From Eurosta solidaginis (Eukaryota; Arthropoda; Insecta; Diptera; Tephritidae): 64,000 nucleotides of DNA. Below are positions 4,933 to 59,420 of the stretch, in pieces. The translations under genes and the position numbers were made by a program. How positions within the stretch are numbered: position 1 is the first letter of the stretch; the number at the start of each line of letters is the position of its first letter. The notes below the pieces were generated by a model. It saw only the letters and a list, made by a program, of their open reading frames with translations. It had not been told where the DNA came from and ran no database searches. The stretch lies in the NCBI RefSeq assembly GCF_040869045.1, contig NC_090319.1, positions 382,369,601 to 382,433,600 of the forward strand, written 5' to 3'.

Positions 4933-5962
4933 GGCCGCACAGTGGCATTTTTGCTAGGTTTAGACGCGAAAAAGTAAAAATTTGCAAGTCATTTTTTTTT
5001 TTTTCGAAATTTGAATGCCGTTTGTTTTTAAAATGTCCACAGTATATAACGGTAATTATCATTTCTTATAGTTATTGTCCTTCATTGAATAATATGCTGT
5101 TAAACTGTGAGTTTTTGATGACGCGATAAGTACAATTTACAGAAGTGAAATAAAGCGTGGTTTAAAATTAAATAAAATTTTGTGGTGAACAAAAGCTAAA
5201 ATATTTGTTGGTTATTTAAAATCTACACGTAATTATATTATTTTGCAAGTGTTCAAAAGTTTTTTGGTTAAGTATTTTTTACGAAATTGTGAGTTTTTAA
5301 TGTGTATTATTTTTGTGCTGAAAATATATAAAACCGTGAAAAGAAAAGCCTGCCATAAGTTTGAACCGCTTTGTACCACAATAATTTTTGAACTTCTACA
5401 ATATATCAATATTATGGCATACAACTCAACTGATTCTTCATCCCCTTAGGTCCCCCGTTTGATATAATGGCCATCATAAAGAGGGAGTTGTATGAGGTGT
5501 GGGCTGCAGAACGTGGCCAAAAGCAAAAGGATAAAGCCGTTTTAGACCACGTGTGTACTGTTTTAGGGAGGGAGTAAATAGAGACGAAGAACTGTATGAT
5601 TAATGCTGCAGTAAAGTTCGAATTTTTTTATCAAACTTTGTATGAGATGGATTCAAGTGAATTACACCAAAGTTAATTTTCTTGGAAAGTTTGCTTCCTG
5701 GTTTGAAGAAGATACGAAATTTAAATATAGGTATGTGCACTTGTCAACAAAAGAACAAGATAAGGCTATAAGAAAGTTTTTGTTTGGGGTATATTCAAAA
5801 ATTTTGGAGAGGGAACCAACCCCTCCCACCCCCTCGCCTATCCTCACTGAAGGGCGGTAATGCATACAAACATATACACTTGGCTTGAATGAAATATATT
5901 AATTTTTCAGTGAGTTATTCAGTTTTCGCTTCTAGATCATGCAAAAATGCCACTGTGGGCCG
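4933..5962. mobile_element. Transib-type DNA transposon with RAG-like terminal signals
   Basis: The element spans 4938-5957 (1020 bp) and is flanked by perfect 5-bp duplications, GGCCG at 4933-4937 and 5958-5962. Each end begins CACAGTG, the same heptamer as the V(D)J recombination signal. After a 23-bp spacer comes an A-rich nonamer-like block (gaaaaagta at 4968-4976; gaaaactga reading down from 5927). Spacers share gcatttttgc and end in a gc next to the block. Transib elements, relatives of RAG1, are known for a CAC-type heptamer, a 23-bp spacer, an A-rich nonamer and GC-rich 5-bp duplications, so all four signs agree. At about 1 kb it is far shorter than an autonomous copy. Confidence 0.85.
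5459..5860 (+). pseudogene. Degraded coding frame inside the Transib-type element
   Basis: Directly after an acceptor-like cttag at 5446-5450 a plus-strand frame reads through about 5459-5575 (MAIIKRELYEVWAAERGQ and onward), meets a stop, continues to about 5665, then shifts into the frame 5642-5860. That second part is rich in Lys, Tyr and Phe and ends in a Pro-rich tail. The composition is protein-like, but two stops and a frameshift show it is dead. I could not match it to Transib transposase; it may be a remnant of that gene or captured sequence. Confidence 0.4.
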
Positions 5963-34709: not shown

Positions 34710-35310
34710 TAAAATTAAAGAAAAAAAAACTTTTTTAAAAATAAGCTTTTATTATTTTGGTTAATAAAATTAACTAAAAAGTAAACAATAAATTGACTCT
34801 AAAGAAATATAACACTTTATAAGTTCATTGTAAGCTTAAACGATAATTAGGCTTTTTCGTCTGCGACAAAAAAATCTATATTGTACATAATTATATATTT
34901 TTAACATTAAAACTTTACACCTAAATTATTAAAGCTTAGAGTTTATATCACAGTCCTAATTGTTCTAATAAAAGAGTGTTACATTGCGATAGCAAGAAAA
35001 TGAGATCCTAAATGTTCTTAATTATACCATCAAAATTTAACGCGTTTTTTATTAGAACAATTTGGACTGTGATATAAACTCTAAGCTTTAATAATTTAGG
35101 TGTAAAGTTTTAATGTTAAAAATATATAATTATGTACAATATAGATTTTTTTGTCGCAGACGAAAAAGCCTAATTATCGTTTAAGCTTACAATGAACTTA
35201 TAAAGTGTTATATTTCTTTAGAGTCAATTTATTGTTTACTTTTTAGTTAATTTTATTAACCAAAATAATAAAAGCTTATTTTTAAAAAAGTTTTTTTTTC
35301 TTTAATTTTA
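34710..35310. repeat. Near-perfect palindrome, 264-bp arms with 73-bp loop
   Basis: The left arm 34710-34973 and right arm 35047-35310 are reverse complements with a single mismatch that I can find (34957 against 35063, both T). The arms include ataagcttttattattttgg, ggctttttcgtctgcgac and aattattaaagcttagagtt. The spacer is 34974-35046. The sequence just left of the arm (34640-34709) is a diverged direct repeat of the arm's outer 80 bp. A transcript across this would fold into a hairpin. The arms carry no coding frame. Confidence 0.95.
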
Positions 35311-50790: not shown

Positions 50791-50924
50791 TCACTAGCCT
50801 TTACGCGTGGAACCGCACGCAAGGAGAAAATGAAATATATAGGCTATACACGTTAGCCTACTTATCATTTTTTTGTAATTGAGTAAAAAAAGAACTAAAT
50901 GAGCTGATAACCTGATAGGATCCC

Positions 50925-53175
50925 CAAATGATCCAGAAATTATCCAGAAGAAGCCACGAAATGACCCCTACGCTATCACGGACGGATCCCGAAAACCATC
51001 AAGAAATGCTCCGGAAGGGTCTCCAAAAGTTCCCGGAATAGTCCCAAAAAAGTGCCGAAATGACCCCGACGGGATCCCGAACGGATCCCGAAAATTAACA
51101 AGAAATTATGCCCGAAGGGACCTCAAATGATCCCGCAAAAATCACGAAATGACCCCGACGGGATCCCGGACCATCCATAAATGATGCCGAAAGGCTTACC
51201 AAATTACGTATTACTCCCAAAAAAGTCCCGAAATGACCACGACGAGATTCCTGATGCATCCCGAAAACCATCCAGAAATTATGCCGGAAGGGACCCCAAA
51301 TGATACCGAAAAAATCACGAAATGACCCCGACGGGATCTCGGACGGATCCCGAAAACCATACAGAAATGATGCCGGAAAATACCCAAAATGATCCCGAAA
51401 TAGTCCCGAAATGACTCCGACGGGATCCCGGACGAATACCGAAAACCATCCAGAAATGATGCCGTACCCCAAATGATCCCGAAATAGTCTCGAAATTACC
51501 CCGTCGGGATCCCGGACGGAACCCGAAAATTATCCAGAAATGATGCCGAAAGGGTTCCCAAATGATCCCGTATTAGTCGCGGAAAAGTCCCGAAGTAACC
51601 CCGACGGGATCTCGTACGAATCCCGAAACTCATCTAGAAATGATGCCGGAAGGTACCACAAATGATCCCGAAAAAGTCCTGAAATGACTCCGACAGGATC
51701 TCCAACGGATCCTGAAAAACATCCAGAAAAGATTCCGGAAGGGACCCCAAATGATCCCGAAAAAGTCCCGAAATGACCCCGACGGGATACCGGACGGATA
51801 CCGAAAACCATCCAGATATGATGCCGGAAAGGTTCTCAAATGATCCCATAATATTCCCGAAATCACCCCGACGGGATCCCGGACGAATCCCGAAAACCAT
51901 CTAGAAATGATGCCGAAAGGGTCCCCAAATGATACCGTATTAGTTGAGAAAAAGTACCGAAATGACCCCGACGGGATCCCGAGGGATACCGAAAACCATC
52001 TAGAAATGGTGCCGGAAGATACACCAAATGATCCCGAAATAGTCCCGAAATGACGCCGACATGATTCCGGACGGATACCGAAAACCATCCAGAAATGATG
52101 GCGATAGGATCCCCAAATGAAGCCCGGAAATGACCCCAACGGGATCCCTGACGGATCTCGAAAACCATCTAGAAGTGATGCCGGAAGGTACCCCAAATTA
52201 TCCCGAAATAGTCTCGAAATGATGAGAGATAATGAGATATCATTATGAAAATTGTTAACTATTATAAGAAAATAATGAATAAACAAACAAAACAAACAAA
52301 TGACCCCGAAATAGTTTTGAAAAAGTCCCGAAATTACACTGACGGGATCCCGAAAATAATCCAGAAATTATCCCGGAAGGATCCCCAACAGTCCCGAAAA
52401 AGATGCCGTAAGGGTCCCCAAATGATCCCGAAATAGTCCCGAAAGGACCCTGAGGGGATCCAGAAATGATCCCGGAACAATACCGAAACGACGGGATCCC
52501 AGATGGATCCCAAAAACTATCCCGAAAAAGTCCCGAAATGACCCTGGCGGGATCCCGGACGGATCGCCAAAATCATCCAGAAATGATGCCGGAAGGGTAC
52601 CAACATCATCCCGAAAAAGTCCCGAAATTACGCATACGGGATCCCGAAAATCATCCAGAAATTATCCAGGAGGGGTCCCGAAATAGCCCTGAAATTACCC
52701 TGACGGGATCCCAGACGGATCCCGAAGACCATCCAGAATTTATCTCTGAAGGGTCCGCAAATGATCCCGAGATAGTCCGGAAAAAGTCCCAAAATGACCC
52801 TGGCGGGATCTCGGACGGATCGCGAAAATCATCCAGAAATTACGCCGGAAGGGTTCCAAAATCATCCCGAAAAAGTCCCAAAATAACCCCGACGGGATCC
52901 CGGACGGATCCAGAAAACTATAGAAATGATTCCGGAAGAGTCCCAAAATGTTCCCGAAATGATCCCGAAATAGTCACGGAAAAGTCCCGAATTGACCCCG
53001 ACGGGACACCGGACGGATCCCGAAAACCATTCAGAAATTATCCCAGAAGAGTCCCAAAGTGATCCCGAAAAAGTCCCGTAAGGATCCCGAAATGACCCCG
53101 ACGGTATCCCGGACGGATGCCGAAGACCATCGTGAAAAGATCCCGGAATGGTCTCGAAATGACCCTGACGGGATT
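50925..53175. repeat. Tandem array of about 89-bp units (about 25 units)
   Basis: Each unit reads roughly aaatgaccccgacgggatcc, cggacggatcccgaaaacca, tccagaaatgatgccggaag, ggtccccaaatgatcccgaa, then ataagtcccg-type text. Successive gacgggatc anchors near 51064, 51155, 51235, 51324, 51413 and 51497 lie 80-91 bp apart. Units differ by point changes and small deletions. A non-repeat insertion of about 75 bp interrupts at 52225-52300. Long frames on both strands (51095-51472, 51530-52295 and 52466-53062) follow from the unit's composition and are not genes. Confidence 0.95.
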
Positions 53176-58772: not shown

Positions 58773-59420
58773 TTACCTCTTCTTTTCGCTCTGGGTAAGA
58801 TCCCCAGTGAACCGCTTGCGACCTGCTTCCACGGTTGTTGTTGTTGTTGTTGTAGCAGTGCTTCGCACCTTGCGGAAGGCACGCTCCCCTTGGCGGGCAT
58901 CAGTCGGGATAGGGAGGGCAGCAAAGAGGTTGTCTGTAAAGGATTTATATTCTTCCCACTTTCCTTTTTTAAAGTTTATGAAAGTGCGTTTTTCGGTGAC
59001 GATGAAGTCGGCGGTACGCTCGAGCGAAACAAGTATAGGCAGGTGGTCGGATGCCAATGATACCATCGGCTGCCAGTTGACGCAGTTTACGAGTTCTGCG
59101 CTCACGATTGAGATATCTGGCGAACTGTGACAGCTTCCTACCATACGTGTGGGGGCGTCTCCGTTTATTGTGCAGAACGTCGTTTCTTCTATTTGATCCG
59201 CCAACATCTCGCCCCTACTGTCCGCCCGCAAATTTGAATGCCATAGATCGTGATGGGCATTGAAGTCGCCTAAAATAATGCGATTGTTTCCAGTGAGTAA
59301 GGCTCTGATATTAGGGCGGTATCCACCGGGGCAACAGGTGGCAGGGGGGATGAAGATGTTGATGATTTCTAGGTTTGCATCGTCTGACCGGACAGATAGG
59401 CCTTGATGTCCTGCTCCCAC
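58773..59420 (-). pseudogene. Non-LTR retrotransposon endonuclease domain (EEP)
   Basis: The 215-codon minus-strand frame begins at an internal Met and carries a LINE-type apurinic endonuclease: ISVRSDDANLEIINIFIPP-like, then GDFNAHHDLW at 51-60, SRGEMLADQIEET, INGDAPTR, SSPDISIVS, and SDHLPIL at 124-130. The GDFN and SDH motifs are the metal- and catalysis-linked signatures. The frame then leaves the family inside a (GTT)n/TTT-coded run (58834-58853, seen as consecutive Thr or Gln codons). In an intact element the reverse transcriptase would follow, but here it is broken. Upstream the frame is disrupted near 59450. RNase-H-bearing I/R1-type LINEs with this endonuclease occur elsewhere in the window. 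Confidence 0.85.

Follow-up and report, generated by a model that had tools for sequence, protein, structure and literature searches.

The element at positions 4938–5957 of the window, by which we mean the whole 64-kb stretch of DNA that was analysed, is with a probability of about 95% an aged non-autonomous Transib, a cut-and-paste DNA transposon of the superfamily akin to the RAG1 enzyme of the immune system, presumably moved by a transposase made elsewhere in the genome. The preliminary description had already proposed a Transib, and this reading is borne out by boundaries that coincide with CACAGTG, by exact 5-bp duplications in 15 of 31 copies, by an empty site, and by the presence of RAG1-like transposases in the genome. 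The superfamily assignment is firm, because these transposases are found in elements of the same genome which themselves have CACAGTG ends, although only seven to nine terminal bases are common to these elements and the window's family.

Results

The element in the window

The element is a discrete unit of 1020 bp, annotated on the plus strand, and as read from the sequence both of its outer ends consist of the heptamer CACAGTG (4938–4944 on the plus strand and 5951–5957 on the minus strand). The terminal inverted repeats (4938–4972 on the plus strand, 5923–5957 on the minus strand) are identical over 17 bp and 86% identical over 35 bp in a self-comparison of the window. The flanks are formed by a perfect 5-bp duplication, GGCCG, at 4933–4937 and 5958–5962, which we assign as the target site duplication based on the sequence and on the duplications of the other family members. 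Thus, both the heptamers at the termini and the GC-rich duplication around the 1020-bp unit are present as first described. In the 64-kb window the 17-mer of the end, with up to three mismatches, is found at the two ends of the element only; 0.26 matches were expected, and two or more matches were obtained in 4 of 100 shuffles. The ends and the GGCCG repeats of the window are not a product of chance, since the genome has at least 40 copies, with most alignments starting at element base 1 and most ending at base 1020. An A-rich block lies 23 bp inside each heptamer: GAAAAAGTA at 4968–4976 on the plus strand and the right-end block at 5919–5927 on the minus strand.

Elsewhere in the window we noted a large palindrome of ∼600 bp (34710–35310) with a 94% match to its own reverse complement, diverged tandem units that form an array of ∼2.2 kb with several overlapping open frames (50911–53168), and on the minus strand an endonuclease domain as found in non-LTR retrotransposons (58776–59420, Exo_endo_phos_2, E 5.4e-15).

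Copies, age, and boundaries

A BLAST comparison of the window element with the 1.9-Gb genome (569 contigs) gave 52 matches. Forty of these, including the window's own, are copies that span most of the element and are located on seven contigs (C1–C6 and C22), whereas the remaining 12 are short end matches in or adjoining the same 40 copies. The number of 40 is a lower bound, as scoring covered the best 40 of 518 first-look candidates. Among these best 40, the alignments begin at element base 1 in 35 copies and stop at base 1020 in 26 copies. The 39 further copies were taken with 300-bp flanks and aligned with the window copy (n = 40), which yielded a consensus of 1046 bases and, after removal of the flanking bases (10 on the left, 9 on the right), an element of 1027 bases. 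The identity of the 40 copies to the consensus is 93.15% on average (range 90.96–96.45), corresponding to a divergence of ∼0.07 substitutions per site (Jukes–Cantor); therefore the family is not recent, and the window element is an aged copy of it.

Among the ends located by the 17-mer with up to five mismatches, a procedure that favours the heptamer, 29 of 36 on the left and 26 of 34 on the right have CACAGTG without any deviation. That the ends of the family are led by CAC and resemble the heptamer does not follow from these counts alone, as the ends of the BLAST alignments, which are independent of the 17-mer, agree with them. The other genome copies and the empty sites by which the preliminary description proposed to check its reading were both found: there are at least 40 copies, most with boundaries that coincide with CACAGTG, and uninterrupted paralogous sites exist for one insertion, as described below. 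Of the two outcomes which that description named as refuting it, copies with other boundaries and empty sites with another duplication length, neither was borne out.

Target duplications and empty sites

Of the 40 copies, 31 have two ends that could be placed; the other nine lack an end or have one that is too diverged and were dropped. Immediately outside the CAC, 15 of the 31 copies have an exact 5-bp duplication compared to 3.4 expected, the expected values being derived from flank pairs whose left and right sides come from different copies. Agreement of at least four of the five bases is seen in 22 copies compared to 44% (about 13.6) expected, the latter number being this high because the targets have the consensus CGSCG in common, which is evident on both flanks from the column counts of the 31 copies. 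Sixteen of the two-ended copies do not have a perfect 5-bp duplication. Exact duplications of 3, 4, or 6–10 bp are absent at the CAC boundary of the 31 copies, and shifting this boundary inwards by one to three bases yields none of 3–10 bp either; agreement of 2 bp of the flanks is at chance (18 of 31, 18.0 expected). Copies L021 and L024 share the same flanks, so that they represent one event, which leaves 14 exact duplications among 30 independent insertions.

The flanks of the 31 copies were then joined with a single target and compared with all fetched sequence. Alignments spanning the joined junction were obtained for six copies (L011, L013, L016, L018, L023, and L027). The clearest empty site is that of L018, whose element is bordered by CGTCG on both sides. 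Its joined flanks form an ungapped alignment of 144 bp with repeats in L002 (at two places) and L004 that are 86–87% alike and carry a single CGTCG; further, weaker relatives of L018 are among the junction alignments. At the junctions of L011, L013, L016, and L023 the alignment is less clean, the divergence greater, or the duplication imperfect. For the insertion in the window itself no empty site was present among the fetched sequences. The duplications and the empty site show that this family inserts at a 5-bp staggered target. A GC-rich target of the CGNCG type is the published target of the Transib superfamily. The length of 5 bp is that of Transib target duplications according to excerpts of PMC7204232 and PMC4411706.

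Ten copies (L009, L014, L021, L022, L026, L028, L030, L036, L038, and L040) adjoin ACCACACCACGGCG or else the complement or a close variant of this motif, and several of the flanks beside this motif align with each other, apparently as the result of repeated insertion into one other repeat family.

The interior

The interior of the family consensus is non-coding and has no long open frame. The region 5467–5800 (plus strand) resembles broken coding sequence, with 36 codons from the ATG at 5467 to a stop at 5575 followed by broken pieces, and stops interrupt it in the family consensus as well. Two pieces of the consensus frame from this region did not match any Pfam family, and the first of them had neither a significant match to a PDB chain (best E 1.4) nor a match to a catalogue protein. 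These searches gave no support to a captured host gene. The interior was also compared as protein and as DNA with the regions of the two Transib families described below, without a credible match; the lowest E values were 0.008 (protein) and 0.025 (DNA), both in region L075 beyond the element end at 5230, and a derivation of the interior from the elements of these families was rejected. The degraded frame had been called not recognisable as transposase, and it is unrecognised in these searches as well. Of the two options offered at the time, a non-autonomous family or one with foreign content, the former holds, but the latter finds no support in the searches with pieces of the interior, which gave no significant match.

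RAG1-like transposases and their elements

The RAG1 profile (PF12940) matches at 15 places in the genome, all 15 above the curated cut-off. When the regions around 13 of these matches (L063–L075; the regions of L051 and L061 were left out) were compared by DNA similarity, they fell into two families, A with nine regions and B with four. The protein of family A matches the PDB transposase 6pqn (E 4.3e-72), which we take to be the Hztransib transposase (the PDB table reads ‘DNA-mediated transposase’). Among the 120 of its 928 relatives that are listed, every named organism is an insect, the best being Bactrocera neohumeralis with 55% identity. The sequences CDGSSGHS, M[IV]DGK, and SEEAQE at the putative catalytic positions, which we assigned guided by the 6pqn match and by the DDE positions given in an excerpt of PMC6941560, all occur in seven of the nine family A regions, where they are sometimes spread over more than one frame; in none of the four family B regions are all three of these patterns, drawn from family A, present. 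We conclude that this genome has, or once had, a Transib enzyme available.

The ends of family A, located on the left in six and on the right in seven of the nine regions, start with CACAGTGTTTCG and are identical over 37 bp (CACAGTGTTTCGTGTAGAACAAGCTAGCTGGACAAAA). Those of family B begin with CACAGTGGCGCC and are thus CACAGTG-led like those of family A. Exact 5-bp duplications flank three of the five two-ended family A regions (L063 CGCTG, L069 TGATG, and L075 GGGCG) and two family B elements (L064 GAACG and L068 CGACG). Families A and B therefore resemble the window's family in their CACAGTG ends and in the 5-bp duplications of some elements, but they carry a RAG1-like transposase where the window's family has no gene, and the interior and sub-terminal sequences are unlike. 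Only the first seven terminal bases are common to family A and the window's family, and the first nine to family B and the window's family.

In L025 (∼295–301; G000:C4:228333245-228334867) a copy of the window's family directly adjoins a family B end, and nothing but the 5-bp CGACG separates their CAC termini; it looks as though the target duplication of one Transib had served as the insertion site of another.

A-rich blocks and V(D)J signals

The reference nonamer of V(D)J recombination signals (RSS) is ACAAAAACC. The consensus ends of the window's family match it at four of nine positions with a spacer of 23 bp (both ends) and at two of nine positions with a spacer of 12 bp, and four matches at spacer 23 are reached by 22% of 20,000 random stretches of the window. 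A genuine 23-RSS was therefore rejected for this family, its nonamer match being at chance level. It follows that the 23-bp spacer and the A-rich block of the preliminary description are literally there, but that the block, including the one at 4968–4976, is no better than chance as an RSS nonamer; likewise, the proposal that the ends mimic V(D)J signals is valid for the heptamer, to which the resemblance is confined.

The blocks of the other two families are closer to the nonamer. The left end of family A contains ACAAAAACA with eight of nine matches at a spacer of 24, and its right end six of nine. In family B, GCAAAAATC (seven of nine) is found at a spacer of 22 in the left-type ends of L064, L068, L071 (at 7622), and L025 and in the right-type ends of L064, L051, and L068. 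The left- and right-type ends have CACAGTGGCGCC in common, one of them reading CACAGTGGCGCT, and the sequence between the heptamer and GCAAAAATC differs between the two types. Among random stretches seven of nine matches at spacers of 21–25 occur in 1.4% and eight of nine in 0.08%. The distance of the block from CACAGTG is thus mostly 22 bp in family B, 23 bp in the window's family, and 24 bp in family A.

Transib ends with heptamer-like and nonamer-like blocks, and with either symmetric spacers of 20–22 bp or a 12/23 arrangement, are described in an excerpt of PMC8355894. We nevertheless consider it unlikely that the A-rich blocks constitute a true bipartite heptamer/nonamer signal, read by these invertebrate transposases without RAG2, in which the length of the spacer is a code of the family: the right-type end of L071 (the same end as in L057) has a spacer of 24, a left-type end of family B (L071 at 1956) is without the block, and the block of the window's family is at chance. 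Family B, most of whose left- and right-type ends have the heptamer and the nonamer-like block in common but not the intervening sequence, is a handier test of nonamer recognition by such transposases than the window element.

Discussion

The question from where the family of the window received its transposase has two answers that deserve consideration. Probably, the family arose by deletion from a third autonomous Transib family that has the same ends and is unseen here or extinct. The inverted repeats argue for this origin, as the two are alike in 34 of the first 36 columns of the consensus, far beyond the nine bases common with family B; in addition, the scraps of reading frame at 5467–5800 may be left over from a coding region. 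On the contrary, no element with the ends CACAGTGGCATTTTTGC around a transposase is among the transposase-bearing families A and B that we have seen, and the scraps have neither a Pfam match (two pieces) nor, for the first piece, a significant PDB or catalogue match, nor anything credible in the regions of these two families.

A second answer, which we hold as a tentative alternative, is that the transposase of family B (or A) moved the window's family despite the agreement of only the outermost seven to nine bases. Family B has CACAGTGGC in common with the window's family, some of its flanks read CGTCG or CGACG (one GAACG), and the adjoining ends in L025 fit with such a common enzyme. Moreover, related invertebrate RAG-like elements are predicted, in an excerpt of PMC7204232, to rely on the terminal ∼15–17 bp. 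Against cross-mobilisation, the ends differ past base 9, and the A-rich motif of family B is a different one, mostly at another distance.

That the element is instead a hAT or another element with terminal inverted repeats whose ends start with CACAGTG by coincidence is highly improbable: hAT elements often begin with CAGTGGC, and this string does occur two bases inside the end of the window element, but an exact 8-bp duplication is present in none of the 31 copies at any of four boundaries, so that the hAT-type boundary was rejected, and both the CAC ends and the 5-bp CGSCG targets are like those of the Transibs in this genome.

For the non-autonomous Transib in the window we return to a cut-and-paste mechanism in trans. 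A Transib transposase from elsewhere in the genome would bind both CACAGTG-led ends and cut exactly outside the CAC, presumably, by analogy to Hztransib, by nicking and hairpin formation. The element would then be inserted into a CGSCG target that has been cut with a 5-bp stagger, and filling of the gaps by host repair would give rise to the 5-bp duplications. The Hztransib enzyme forms the hairpin on the flanking DNA and leaves a blunt cut at the element end in a RAG-like manner, according to an excerpt of PMC6941560.

The comparison with known systems can be made at three levels. Hztransib from Helicoverpa zea, as characterised in the excerpt just cited, is an enzyme, whereas the window element has none; the homologue of 6pqn in this genome is the transposase of family A. 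With the vertebrate V(D)J signals the window's family shares the heptamer CACAGTG, but unlike them it has symmetric ends, no 12/23 pair, and a block with four of nine matches to the nonamer.

The third comparison is with the short members of the Transib superfamily itself, where the ‘N’ in names such as Transib N1–N3 stands for non-autonomous. The window's family is a new family of this known kind, and it may already have a name in Repbase. What it contributes is one family with well-defined boundaries and a clear CGSCG target, and the genome permits a side-by-side comparison of three Transib end types. By itself the finding adds little, as RSS-like Transib ends and the short N1–N3 of Anopheles gambiae, named in the legend of Fig. 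2, are already in print (PMC8355894). As far as the excerpted sources describe them, the superfamily including N1–N3 and the window's family are alike in their CAC-led heptamer-like ends, in the 5-bp duplications, and in the lack of a transposase gene inside N1–N3 and the window's family. Apart from its own sequence, the window's family differs from them, compared by description, in the spacers: its block is separated from the heptamer by 23 bp on both sides, whereas the legend in PMC8355894 gives symmetric spacers of 20–22 bp and, for N1–N3, a 12/23 asymmetry.
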